Below, in pieces: positions 42,541-59,721 of a DNA stretch of 64,000 nt. Location: assembly GCF_016025255.1 (NCBI RefSeq), contig NZ_CP065592.1, positions 2,312,122 through 2,376,121 of the forward strand, read 5' to 3'. The DNA is from Sphingosinicella flava (GTDB taxonomy: Bacteria > Pseudomonadota > Alphaproteobacteria > Sphingomonadales > Sphingomonadaceae). Below the pieces are notes generated by a model, which saw nothing but the letters and a program-made list of their open reading frames with translations, ran no database searches and was not told the origin of the DNA. A program made the translations under genes and the position numbers. Position 1 is the first letter of the stretch. Each line of letters begins with the position of its first letter.

Positions 42541-42609
42541 TCCGTTCGTGCCGAGCGAAGTCGAGGCGCGCTCGTGCTGACGCCCCTCGACTTCGCTCGG
42601 GACGAACGA
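42541..42609. repeat. Palindromic repeat with GAGCGAAGTCGAG core, intergenic copy
   Basis: Two inverted arms, CCGTTCGTGCCGAGCGAAG... and ...CTTCGCTCGGGACGAACG, fill the gap between ileS and lspA. Each arm can fold on its own around the core GAGCGAAGTCGA. The same element is found inside ileS. Confidence 0.85.
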
Positions 42610-42622
42610 TGTGTCGTGCGTA

Positions 42623-45600
42623 TCAACCATGGAGAACCTCGTCGCAGCGGGCGCAAAGCGCACCTTCTTCCTTCACTTCCGGCAAATGACGCCAACAGCG
42701 GCCGCATTTTTCATTGTCCGTGCGAGCTACTTCCACCGAAATTCCCAAAATATTTTGGGAAAGGGTGTCGCTGGTTTCGGCCACCTCGCTAGACAATGCC
42801 TCCGGTTCCAGGGCCACTTGAGAGACGATAAAATATTCGGCCAGTTCGTCTTCTGAATAAGAGGCAATATCGTGGGGTCGGCTGTGGTGAACCGTCACAC
42901 TGGCTTCCAAGCTCGAGCGTATGATCTTTTCGCGACGGAAAGGCTCAATGGTCTCGGTTACGAGACGACGATATTCTCTCAGGCGTTCCCACTTCTGAGC
43001 CAGCCCATCATCGCGCCACGCGGCATCGACTTCCGGCCAAGTTTCCAGATGGATGGACTCCTCCTCGGGATAGCGGCTCGCCCACACTTCCTCGGCCGTG
43101 AAGCAAAGGATTGGCGCGGACCAGCGCACCAGCGCGTGGAAGACGATGTCGAGAACGGTGCGATAGGCGCGGCGCTTCGCCGAGGTCGGCGCATCGCAGT
43201 AGAGGCTGTCCTTGCGGATATCGAAGAAGAAAGCCGACAGGTCGTCATTTGCGAAATTGGTGATCGCGCGCGTGTAGCGATTGAATTCGAAGGTCTCAGC
43301 CGCCGATTTCAGCTCCGCGTCGAGAAGCGCGAGGCGGTGGAGCACCCAACGTTCCAGCTCAGGCATGTCCCGCGCCGCAACGCGCTCTGCCCCGGTGAAA
43401 TCGCCGAGCGCGCCGAGCAGATAGCGGAAGGTGTTGCGGAGCTTGCGGTAGGCGTCGGACGTGCCCGCGAGCACTTCCTTGCCGATGCGCACATCCTCGA
43501 AATAATCGGTCGAGGCGACCCACATCCGCAATATGTCCGCACCGCTTTCGTCGATTATCTTCAGCGGATCGACGACATTGCCGATCGACTTGGACATCTT
43601 GCGGCCATTCTGGTCGAGCGCGAAGCCGTGGGTCAGCACCGCCTCATATGGCGCCCGGCCGCGCGTGCCGCAGCTTTCGAGAAGCGAGGATTGGAACCAG
43701 CCGCGATGCTGGTCCGAACCCTCGACATACAGGTCCGCGCGGGTGCCCTCGCCATAGCGGGCCTCGACCACATAAGCGTGGGTGGAGCCGCTGTCGAACC
43801 AGACGTCGAGAATGTCGGTGACGATGTCGTAATCGGCGAGATTGTGGTCGGGCCCGAGCAATTCCTCATGCCGCGCCATGAACCAGGCATCGGCGCCATT
43901 CTTCTTGAAGGCCTCGACGATCCGCCGGTTGACGGCGGGATCGCGGAGATAGTCGCCGGTCTTGCGATTCACATAAAGCGCGATCGGCACGCCCCAGGCG
44001 CGCTGGCGGGAGATGACCCAGTCGGGCCGTCCAGCGACCATCGCGCCTATGCGGTTCTGCGCCTTGGCCGGAACCCAGCGGGTCTCTTCGATGGCGGCGA
44101 TGGCCGTTTCGCGGAGGGTCATGGAAGCACTGTTGTGGCATTGCCCACGCTTCTCGACTTCGCTCGAAGCGAACGGTTGTGGATTGCCCTCAATTCCGTC
44201 CTTGTCACGCGAGCCCTCAACCCCGTTCGTGTCGAGCGAAGTCGAGACACGCTGACCCCCGCTCTGATCCATCGGAATGAACCATTGCGGGGTGCAGCGG
44301 AAGATGACCTTCGCCTTGGAGCGCCAGCTGTGAGGATAGCTATGCTGGAAATCGTCCGACGCGGCGAGCAAGGCACCCGCTTCGCGCAGGTCGCGGCAGA
44401 TCGGGCCCTCTTCCATCTTGGACGCATTGCCCGACGCATTGAACTTCGGATTGATGACGCTGCCCTGGCCGCCGAGCCACGCCCAATCCTCGCGATAGCG
44501 CCCGTCGTCGGTGACGGCGAAAACCGGATCGATCCCATGCGCCTTGCAGAGCAGGAAATCGTCCTCGCCATGGTCCGGTGCCATGTGGACAAGGCCGGTA
44601 CCCGCATCGGTGGTGACGAAATCGCCGGGGAGGAGGGGGCGCGGGCTGGCATAGAAGCCGCCCAGGTGATGCATCGGGTGCATCGCCATTCCATCTTTCA
44701 AGCGGGATCCAGGAATCCACCCAGCTAGGTTCTCAAATGCGTTGAAGCCTAAGTCGGACGGGATTTTTCCATCCAAGAAATGGTCATTGCCCAATTTCAG
44801 CGCGAAAGCTCGCGCTGCTGGGGAGATGTGAATTCCGGTACGCTGTGAGAACGATTCCAGCAGCGCATCCGCCACGAGAAAACGATTTGTCCCATCGAAT
44901 ACGATAAAATAGAGGATGTTGGGTCCATACGCCAAAGCTTGATTGACCGGAATCGTCCACGGTGTCGTGGTCCAGATAGCTGCGTATGTCCCGATTATTT
45001 CGGGCGCATTCGGCGCCTCAACAATCTCAAATCCAACATCGATCTGGGTCGAGGTGATGTCCTCATATTCCACTTCGGCTTCGGCCAGAGCGGTCTTCTC
45101 CACGGGCGACCACATCACAGGCTTGGCGCCGCGGTAGAGCTGGCCGCTTTCGGCGAATTTCAGAAGCTCAGCCACGATTGCGGCCTCGGCCTCGTAATTC
45201 ATGGTGAGATAGGGGTCGTCCCACTCGCCCATGATGCCGAGGCGCTGGAATTGCGCCTTCTGCACATCCACCCATTTGTCGGCATAGGCCCGGCATTCGG
45301 CGCGGAATTGGGCGGTCGGCACCTGATCCTTATCGAGCTTCTGTTTGCGATAGGCTTCCTCGACCTTCCACTCGATGGGGAGGCCGTGGCAGTCCCAACC
45401 CGGAACGTAAGGCGCGTCATAGCCCATCAGGGTGCGGGATCGGACGATGATGTCCTTCAGCACCTTGTTCATCGCATGGCCCATATGGATGTCGCCATTG
45501 GCGTAAGGCGGGCCGTCGTGGAGGATGAAGCGGGTCTTGCCCGCGCGCGCCGCGCGGAGCTTGTCGTACAGCCCCTGCTCGGACCAGCGCGCGAGAATGG

Positions 45601-45688
45601 CCGGCTCCTTCTGCGCGAGGCCGGCCTTCATCGGGAAATCCGTCTGCGGCAGGAAGACGGTATTCTTATAGTCAGGTTTTTCGGACAT
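42623..45688 (-). CDS. ileS: Isoleucyl-tRNA synthetase with an internal repeat-encoded insertion
   Basis: A 1021-residue class I synthetase. The HIGH motif is HMGH (in PPYANGDIHMGH, about 60-70), the KMSKS motif is intact (GRKMSKSIGN), and a C-terminal zinc finger reads CGRCWRHL...CARC. The editing CP1 domain is complete. Between FIPMDQ (residue 475) and TLRETAIAAI (from 524) there are about 48 residues not expected in IleS, rich in Ser, Gly, Asp and Glu. They are encoded by a palindromic repeat (44149-44252). The start is ATG 45688, just downstream of a 29-base palindrome. Confidence 0.95.
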   Translation of the reverse strand: MSEKPDYKNTVFLPQTDFPMKAGLAQKEPAILARWSEQGLYDKLRAARAGKTRFILHDGPPYANGDIHMGHAMNKVLKDIIVRSRTLMGYDAPYVPGWDCHGLPIEWKVEEAYRKQKLDKDQVPTAQFRAECRAYADKWVDVQKAQFQRLGIMGEWDDPYLTMNYEAEAAIVAELLKFAESGQLYRGAKPVMWSPVEKTALAEAEVEYEDITSTQIDVGFEIVEAPNAPEIIGTYAAIWTTTPWTIPVNQALAYGPNILYFIVFDGTNRFLVADALLESFSQRTGIHISPAARAFALKLGNDHFLDGKIPSDLGFNAFENLAGWIPGSRLKDGMAMHPMHHLGGFYASPRPLLPGDFVTTDAGTGLVHMAPDHGEDDFLLCKAHGIDPVFAVTDDGRYREDWAWLGGQGSVINPKFNASGNASKMEEGPICRDLREAGALLAASDDFQHSYPHSWRSKAKVIFRCTPQWFIPMDQSGGQRVSTSLDTNGVEGSRDKDGIEGNPQPFASSEVEKRGQCHNSASMTLRETAIAAIEETRWVPAKAQNRIGAMVAGRPDWVISRQRAWGVPIALYVNRKTGDYLRDPAVNRRIVEAFKKNGADAWFMARHEELLGPDHNLADYDIVTDILDVWFDSGSTHAYVVEARYGEGTRADLYVEGSDQHRGWFQSSLLESCGTRGRAPYEAVLTHGFALDQNGRKMSKSIGNVVDPLKIIDESGADILRMWVASTDYFEDVRIGKEVLAGTSDAYRKLRNTFRYLLGALGDFTGAERVAARDMPELERWVLHRLALLDAELKSAAETFEFNRYTRAITNFANDDLSAFFFDIRKDSLYCDAPTSAKRRAYRTVLDIVFHALVRWSAPILCFTAEEVWASRYPEEESIHLETWPEVDAAWRDDGLAQKWERLREYRRLVTETIEPFRREKIIRSSLEASVTVHHSRPHDIASYSEDELAEYFIVSQVALEPEALSSEVAETSDTLSQNILGISVEVARTDNEKCGRCWRHLPEVKEEGALCARCDEVLHG
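44149..44252. repeat. Palindromic repeat inside the ileS coding sequence
   Basis: Two inverted arms of 28-29 bases (44149-44176 and 44223-44251). Read in the same sense they are CCGTTCG-CT-TCGAGCGAAG... and CCGTTCG-TG-TCGAGCGAAG..., closing with AG-CG and CA-CG. The differing bases remain complementary within each arm (CT with AG, TG with CA). The reading frame passes through without a stop. Confidence 0.9.
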
Positions 45689-45705: not shown

Positions 45706-45734
45706 CGGGTGGTTTGCAATTTGCAAACCACCCG
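45706..45734. repeat. 29-base perfect palindrome upstream of ileS
   Basis: Arms CGGGTGGTTTGCAA and TTGCAAACCACCCG flank a single T. It ends 17 bases before the ileS start codon on the minus strand, in the region of the mRNA leader, and touches the next repeat block. Confidence 0.8.
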
Positions 45735-45736
45735 TC

Positions 45737-45820
45737 ATGCTGGACTTGACCCAGCATCTATGAACACGGGGCTTTTCCGGCTAGCCCCCCGTGTTCGTGG
45801 ACCCCGGATCAGTCCGGGGT
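45737..45820. repeat. Cluster of three hairpins at the ribF/ileS junction
   Basis: ATGCTGG-loop-CCAGCAT (45737-45757), GAACACGGGG-loop-CCCCGTGTTC (45762-45796) and ACCCCGGA-TCAG-TCCGGGGT (45801-45820). The last hairpin and part of the middle one lie inside the 3' end of ribF. Confidence 0.8.
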
Positions 45821-58217: not shown

Positions 58218-58246
58218 AAGGGCGGTTCGCATGGGGAGCCGCCCTT
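58218..58246 (+). terminator. Hairpin after rne
   Basis: Eleven-base stem AAGGGCGGTTC/GAGCCGCCCTT with one G-T wobble and a seven-base loop, eight bases after the rne stop. Only TT follows, so termination efficiency is uncertain. Confidence 0.45.
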
Positions 58247-58287
58247 CGCACTTCATCGGCTGTTCAGCCGCCGGGAAGGATAAGCGG

Positions 58288-59721
58288 ATGATGGGTCAAA
58301 GCGCACATCGTGCTCCGGCGGAGGCCGGAGCCCAGTCCTTCGATCAGCGCCGCTGGACTCCGGCCTCCGCCGGAGCACAAATTGTGCGATACGTCATGCT
58401 CCTGGCGTTGAGCTTCGCCGCGTTCGTCCAGCCCGCCGCCGCGCAATCCATCCTCCGCGATGCCGAAACCGAAGCCTTGTTCAAGGACATGTCCCGCCCG
58501 ATCGTCGCGGCGTCGGGCCTGAGGCCGGAAAATGTCGAGATCGTGCTGATCGGCGACAATTCGATCAATGCCTTCGTCTCGCAAGGCCAGGTCGTCTACA
58601 TCCATTCCGGCCTGATCGCCGCTGCCGACAATGCCAATGAGGTGCAGGGCGTCATCGCCCACGAGCTTGGCCATATCACCGGCGGCCACGTCATCCGCTA
58701 CAGTCAGGGCGCCGGGACCGCGACCGGCATCACCATCCTGTCCCTGCTCCTCGGCGTTGCCGCCGTCGCGGCGGGGGCCGGGGAGGCGGGCGCGGGCATC
58801 ATGGCGGCGGGCCAGCAGGCGGCGATGGGCAAGTTCCTCGCTTTCCTGAAGGCGGAAGAATCGAGCGCGGATCAGGCGGGTGCCAAATTCCTCTCCGGCG
58901 CAGGGGTTAGCGGGAAGGGCTCGCTCTCTTTCTTCAAGAAATTGCAGAACCAGGAATTCCGCCTCGCCATCCCGCAGGAGGATAGCTACGGCCGCACCCA
59001 CCCCTTGTCGGGCGAGCGCATTCAATGGCTCGAGGCGCGCTACCGCGCCGATCCCGCGTGGGACAAAAAGACGGATCCGGCGATCGAAGCGCGTTTTCAG
59101 CGCGTGAAGGCGAAGCTCGCGGGCTTCGTCAACGACCCGCGCCAGACGCTCATCGCCTATCCCGAAACCAACAAGAGCATGCCCGCCCGCTATGCCCGGG
59201 CCTATGCCTATCACAAGACCGCTTTCCCCGACAAAGCGGTCGCGGAAGTGGACAGCCTGCTCGCCGAAGCGCCGCACGACCCCTATTTCCTTGAGCTCAA
59301 GGGCCAGGTTCTGCTCGAATCCGGTCGCCCGGCCGAGGCCGTGGAAGCCTTGCGCGACGCGGTCGCGCAAGCGCCCGATCAGCCGCTCATTTCGGCCCTT
59401 TTCGGCCACGCGTTGATCGCGACCGAGGATCCGAAGAATTTCGAGGAAGCGAAGGGTGTGCTCCGCGCCGCCGTCGCGCGCGACAATTCCAATCCCTTCG
59501 CCTGGTATCAACTTGGCATCATCTACGACCGCGAAGGCGACACGGCCCGCGCCGCACTGGCAACGGCGGAGCGGTATAATCTGCAGGGCGATCCGAAGCT
59601 CGCCCTTGCCAGCGCGCAACAGGCGCTCCACGGCATTCCGGAAAACAGCGCTGACTGGCTGCGCGCGCAGGATATCAAGATGGTGGCCGAAGAGGCGATC
59701 AGGAAAGACAAGAAACGGTGA
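58288..59721 (+). CDS. BepA-like M48 metalloprotease with TPR repeats
   Basis: An exported protease-chaperone of about 477 residues. The zinc motif HELGH lies in GVIAHELGHITGGH, followed by a hydrophobic segment and a third ligand Glu in FLKAEESSADQAG. The C-terminal half holds four TPR-like helical pairs, as in E. coli BepA (YfgC), which assists LptD and BamA assembly. The start is debatable. ATG 58288 follows a strong GGAAGGA but puts a palindromic-repeat-encoded stretch ahead of the signal peptide (MLLALSFAAFVQPAAAQ). GTG 58384 or ATG 58393 would give a clean signal peptide but have no ribosome site. Its stop overlaps the DsbA-like gene (GTGA). Confidence 0.9.
   Translation: MMGQSAHRAPAEAGAQSFDQRRWTPASAGAQIVRYVMLLALSFAAFVQPAAAQSILRDAETEALFKDMSRPIVAASGLRPENVEIVLIGDNSINAFVSQGQVVYIHSGLIAAADNANEVQGVIAHELGHITGGHVIRYSQGAGTATGITILSLLLGVAAVAAGAGEAGAGIMAAGQQAAMGKFLAFLKAEESSADQAGAKFLSGAGVSGKGSLSFFKKLQNQEFRLAIPQEDSYGRTHPLSGERIQWLEARYRADPAWDKKTDPAIEARFQRVKAKLAGFVNDPRQTLIAYPETNKSMPARYARAYAYHKTAFPDKAVAEVDSLLAEAPHDPYFLELKGQVLLESGRPAEAVEALRDAVAQAPDQPLISALFGHALIATEDPKNFEEAKGVLRAAVARDNSNPFAWYQLGIIYDREGDTARAALATAERYNLQGDPKLALASAQQALHGIPENSADWLRAQDIKMVAEEAIRKDKKR
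58310..58378. repeat. Palindromic repeat in the 5' coding region of the BepA-like gene
   Basis: A perfect 21-base inverted repeat: GTGCTCCGGCGGAGGCCGG... (58310-58330) and its partner (58358-58378), with four further pairs inside. It is 69 bases long, a multiple of three, and contains no stop in the gene's frame. Confidence 0.9.

Follow-up and report, generated by a model that had tools for sequence, protein, structure and literature searches.

How does the gene of an essential enzyme come to carry a palindromic repeat within its reading frame, and did such a repeat arrive once or many times? The question is raised by ileS of Sphingosinicella flava, which encodes isoleucyl-tRNA synthetase (IleS, IleRS) and lies in the stretch of 64,000 nucleotides analysed here as a whole (the window; positions 2312122-2376121 of the 2.42 Mb single-contig genome). 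Ever since the Rickettsia elements became known, it has been debated whether palindromes of this kind are tolerated selfish DNA or raw material for protein change.

Parts of the answer have been published. A 2013 survey described REPs as mostly intergenic and in part intragenic (PMC3733652); it reported them within tRNA synthetase genes of both S. alaskensis and E. litoralis and at a recB site common to two Xanthomonas, and suggested that the intragenic ones are placed neutrally, in flexible loops. RPE-7 was listed in the isoleucyl-tRNA synthetase of Rickettsia, where orthologues carry differing RPE groups; shared sites (RPE-4/6/7) were put down to one diverged ancestral insertion, and hotspots were left open (PMC3767692). 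Furthermore, MITEs are non-autonomous inverted-repeat elements that fuse in frame to open frames (PMC10969869). Both palindromes in proteins (Rickettsia IleRS included) and REPs in the tRNA synthetases of sphingomonads are thus already known, and the sequence-only reading that drew attention to the insert overstated its novelty in sphingomonads. On the other hand, we found no report in the open-licence literature of recurrence of several families at one site of an essential enzyme across an order, nor anything there that combined palindromic repeats, IleRS and Sphingomonas.

The ileS gene and its in-frame insert

The ileS coding sequence (42626..45688, minus strand; likely start at 45688, MSEKPDY) encodes 1021 aa and is spanned by an open minus-strand frame from 45757 to 42623. 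Its product holds the class I tRNA synthetase, anticodon-binding and zf-FPG_IleRS domains, the set expected of an IleRS. An in-frame insert of 49 aa (residues 475-523; 44120..44266, minus strand) separates the conserved segments WFIPMD and TLRE and contains two inverted REP arms of 25 nt each, 92% complementary and 46 nt apart. Arm 1 (44152..44176, minus strand) is of the CTTC...GAAG subtype and encodes the FASSEVE part; arm 2 (44223..44247, plus strand) is of the TGTC...GACA subtype, and its minus-strand reading encodes the STSLDTN part. Exact copies of arm 2 are present elsewhere in the genome, and no further copy of the 46-nt spacer between the arms (44177..44222 in the inverted-repeat scan) was found in it. 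The inverted-repeat score of the insert was 19, that of its shuffles 6.8 on average, and because none of 100 shuffles scored as high, the repeat is not a chance arrangement.

The open frame, the arms, the score and the copies elsewhere bear out the earlier claim of a palindromic repeat read in frame as a loop of about 48 residues, and the limits given for it (residues 476-523, 44122-44266) were right to within one codon. The arms are inverted as described but slightly shorter in ileS than the 28-29 nt attributed to them.

In the solved Priestia IleRS structure 8c9e the interval of the insert is 3 residues long (query 472 to 525 equals chain 414 to 418). An AlphaFold model of the whole IleS (mean pLDDT 83.4, pTM 0.80) agrees in fold with the solved IleRS structures; residues 481-519 are predicted with pLDDT <50 and no secondary structure, and both flanks are confidently structured. 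Folding of the insert RNA gave -67 kcal/mol (z = -4.8). From the open frame and the essential role of the gene we infer that the insert is translated as a loop of IleS and tolerated.

The repeat family in the genome

The arm CGTTCGTGTCGAGCGAAGTCGAGA had 35 genome matches at up to 3 mismatches, against 0 for the reversed control, and a wider arm pattern gave 41 matches in the 2.42 Mb. The family sits at 20 places, where inverted pairs prevail, and is mainly extragenic: three of the 20 are clearly in conserved genes (IleS, PutA and BCKDH E2), the genic or extragenic context of the remaining ones being judged from ORFs only. The genome-wide arm search that the sequence-only reading had proposed thus yielded two further in-frame copies, in PutA and in the linker of the branched-chain dehydrogenase E2 subunit, both common to this genome and Allosphingosinicella vermicomposti. 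Another copy lies between nuoC and nuoD. The intergenic copy that had been reported near ileS was found in the ileS-lspA spacer (42542..42609), with 28-nt arms at 42543-42570 and 42581-42608 in the inverted-repeat scan, a 10-nt spacer and 93% complementarity.

Several places combine an arm of the TGTC...GACA subtype with one of the CTTC...GAAG subtype; the ileS copy does so too, but with the arm order inside out. A single 28-nt arm forms a hairpin by itself, with a 6-bp stem that covaries across copies: 95% of the stem cells are paired in the aligned copies versus 82% after shuffling (0 of 500 shuffles as high), and stem pair 8-25 shows all four Watson-Crick types. By its anatomy the family is therefore a REP, organised in REPIN-like dimers, in which two inverted REPs form a larger hairpin, as witnessed by the inverted pairs at most places and the RNA hairpin of the ileS copy. 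The tip of the family is CGTTCG, and the GTAG and CGTC tags of the REP superfamilies are absent from it. A RAYT in the same genome, as expected of REPINs, was not found: the search for the RAYT/Y1 transposase (PF01797) gave no match in this genome (G000) or in its sister G019, and 19 of the 61 genomes searched have one. The idea of a RAYT-carrying genome was accordingly dropped.

The same IleS site in Sphingomonadales

REP-type inverted repeats occupy the same codon position of IleS in 46 of 109 Sphingomonadales. They stand in several reading phases, which vary even within a single family, and belong to families A (CGTTCG...TCGAG), B (CGTTCG...CTGAGCnTGTCGAAG), C (CCCTCTCCC...GGGAGAGGG, with variants C2 and D) and E, the CGTC-type elements of L072 and L111. 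Since A resembles B, and C, C2 and D resemble each other, three unrelated superfamilies were counted, with 34 sites occupied by CD, 10 by AB and 2 by E. Most repeat loops had inverted-repeat scores of 12-31, equalled in 0-1 of 100 shuffles; a few degenerate ones, e.g. L041 and L051, were assigned to a family by motif.

Within the same GTDB genus the plain site is rare: 19 of 23 readable IleS carry a repeat-encoded loop (one of them, G022, read from a frameshifted draft), and some species lack a repeat and have turns of 4-6 residues (G006, G020, G023). In the nearest named relative, the sister A. vermicomposti KCTC 22446 (G019), the site holds a C-family dimer, unrelated to the A-family dimer of this genome, and the ileS DNA of the two is about 91% identical on both sides of these unrelated inserts. 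Across the order the loop measures between 4 and about 70 residues, and part of the order has a conserved non-repeat loop (KVMTHIEPK... in Sphingopyxis and Novosphingobium relatives). Outside Sphingomonadales, 19 readable alphaproteobacterial IleS have a turn of 2-14 residues and no repeat, with Jiella mangrovi (L132) as the named exception.

The differing families at one site in relatives identify it as recurrent rather than the trace of a single event. The comparison of relatives proposed earlier thus upheld an insertion, but not one that a species simply has or lacks, as relatives for the most part carry another REP family there, unrelated to that of this genome; simple presence or absence of one insertion was rejected on the same ground. 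A loop of equal length without repeat similarity in all sphingomonads, which had been named as the outcome that would speak against the insertion, was not what we saw: lengths are often similar, and the loops are repeat-encoded. A shared conserved non-repeat loop holds for part of the order only and not for this genus. These data indicate that repeat elements have landed again and again in one loop of an essential enzyme.

Changes on the IleS tree

A tree was built from the 109 IleS proteins after removal of the loop. At least 30 state changes were counted on it (shuffled mean 39.6); parsimony does not tell gains from losses, and the figure would be inflated by any recombination of ileS. Presence and absence alone required 22 changes, and well-supported branches force at least 14 of these. 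For the AB label the number was 9 (8 forced), and this label clustered no more than shuffled ones. Genomes with an occupied site are richer in REPs, with a median of 65 versus 6 pattern matches (P = 2e-5, species pooled), and the tree-independent pairs were too few to confirm this link. The family in ileS matched the commonest family of the genome weakly (P = 0.06).

Occupation of other genes and spacers

Intragenic repeats were surveyed in stretches sampled from G025 (400 kb), G015 (400 kb) and G019 (380 kb), ~1.2 Mb with 936 called genes in all, by means of a simple ORF caller that can miss genes. Inverted repeats scoring at least 18 were found there in ileS of G025, ileS of G015, an OdhB linker of G019 and one dubious short ORF only. 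Among 41 named ileS loci, nearly all of Sphingomonadales, 9 had a repeat scoring at least 14 in the loop, 12 had one in the 400 bp upstream and 5 had one in the ileS-lspA spacer. The coding loop is thus occupied about as often as genuine spacers are.

Two more IleS stretches take up REPs in some species, namely the CP1 hypervariable stretch (aa ~287-354), with in-frame REPs in L071, L086, L103 and L106, and aa ~861-866, just before LxEKWD, with CGTC-type elements in two species (L103, L126). The E2 linker is likewise a recurrent multi-family REP site (9 of 24, one a weak repeat; L179-L208), and so is the PutA linker (5 of 28; L149-L178), both linkers being no unbiased sample because they were chosen for the repeats present in this genome. 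It should be added that arginine-rich DRR/ERR repeat stretches occur in the E2 linkers L189, L192, L206 and L207, and that at about 221.37 kb of G019:C2 (L264) A. vermicomposti has a B-family REP dimer in frame, likely in the linker of OdhB (2-oxoglutarate dehydrogenase E2).

Explanations of the recurrent site

We consider it probable that the site is a coding safe harbour, which equals an intergenic spacer in permissiveness and has repeatedly been colonised by mobile palindromes. The insert of this genome would be an inverted, REPIN-like pair of CGTTCG-tipped REPs, read through in frame into a disordered 49-residue loop, and the site itself a turn of the catalytic domain, from the WF.PMD strand to the TLRE helix, whose length may change freely while the enzyme is kept. 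REPs of several unrelated families would have entered it repeatedly in the evolution of Sphingomonadales, replacing or losing one another, so that this stretch of ileS behaves as an intergenic spacer would. REPs may arrive widely, with coding insertions usually purged and the IleS turn and a few linkers exempt. The loop is presumably carried by the enzyme at little cost; the elements probably come by transposition, through a transposase in trans or since lost, and go by deletion, and purifying selection would clear REPs from other coding DNA. Support for a safe harbour comes from the identity, frame and position of the repeat, its predicted disorder, the multi-family occupation, the many changes on the tree and the rarity in other genes.

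The single codon position might instead be a preferred target of several families or be kept occupied by selection, with palindromes converging on it as a functional hairpin or a species-specific loop. We regard this as unlikely, and family diversity, free length variation and relatives with 4-6-residue turns argue against targeted insertion and selected function alike. A REP mobilisation that prefers the ileS site through its target sequence or a single-stranded DNA structure would fit the fact that 46 of 109 species have a repeat at a site of ~30 bp, a high share when compared with entire neighbouring spacers that measure 150-400 bp; nevertheless, one target motif would hardly serve three unrelated superfamilies, PutA, E2 and other IleS loops are occupied too, and the empty sites in occupied/empty pairs such as L105/L094 show neither a common motif nor a target duplication beyond the conserved codons, which makes such targeting improbable. 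A slightly poorer candidate still is a beneficial mRNA hairpin (e.g. one that makes translation pause once the CP1 domain has been made) or peptide loop, for which any repeat would serve. The stable hairpin (z = -4.8) and the many species with one codon position would agree with it, but the loop varies from 4 to about 70 residues in the order, close relatives have almost none, neither sequence nor family is conserved even between sisters, and the AlphaFold model has no structure in the loop.

It seems very improbable that one or few ancient insertions were spread and shuffled by interspecies recombination of ileS segments. The loop family does depart from the IleS tree, and ileS has further patchy hypervariable stretches; however, three superfamilies in several phases would still require many separate insertions, and next to the insert the sisters keep near 91-93% identity, uninterrupted by any long divergent tract. 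As to a sequencing or assembly error, repeats can confuse assembly, and in G002 and G021 the ileS matches stop near the loop, at the ends of contigs, which is what a repeat that broke the assembly there would produce. The frame is nonetheless preserved in dozens of independent assemblies, single-contig genomes included, and this source of the insert, which the sequence-only reading had itself raised, was dismissed as practically negligible.

Relation to known palindromic elements

The closest likeness is to Rickettsia RPEs (with Wolbachia palindromic elements), palindromes in frame in solvent-exposed segments of conserved enzymes, and the kinship in kind suggested earlier proved apt. The ileS insert stands in an open frame, is absent from solved IleRS and is disordered in the model, and its loop is probably exposed; it would work like an RPE, and we claim no membership. 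It differs in that unrelated families meet at one sphingomonad IleS site, as opposed to the one ancestral insertion proposed for the shared sites in Rickettsia. With the REP/REPIN elements of the GTAG and CGTC superfamilies it shares short hairpins, inverted dimers and a mostly intergenic, partly intragenic placement, whereas the ileS family of this window is tipped CGTTCG. In PMC3733652, genes that belong to one functional category had their REPs at differing sites, recB excepted, and no order-wide recurrent site was described. MITEs, in turn, are also non-autonomous inverted repeats capable of in-frame fusion, but occupied/empty pairs such as L105/L094 gave no clear target-site duplication, and no parental transposon turned up in a search that covered PF01797.

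One site in an essential enzyme thereby offers dozens of separate natural experiments, occupied, empty or differently occupied in close relatives, and with such variety, loop swaps in a laboratory strain could put tolerance against function to a direct test. Moreover, the IleS site may serve as a sensitive tracker of the REP families active in a lineage.

Further repeats and diverged stretches in the window

Two stretches of ileS, 44690-45050 and 42720-42990, have a GC content of about 50% versus 62% and are strongly diverged from the sister, the remainder being about 91% identical. The C-terminal coding part of the gene contains a perfect 20-nt palindrome, TTCCCAAAATATTTTGGGAA, at 42742-42761. 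Upstream of ileS (45706-45811) there are further palindromes: a perfect inverted repeat of 14 nt and, in the spacer, one of 25 nt that belongs to another repeat family. Finally, a palindromic element read as APAEAGAQ/TPASAGAQ is located at 58309-58378, near the called N-terminus of ORF 58230-59721 and probably ahead of its true start.
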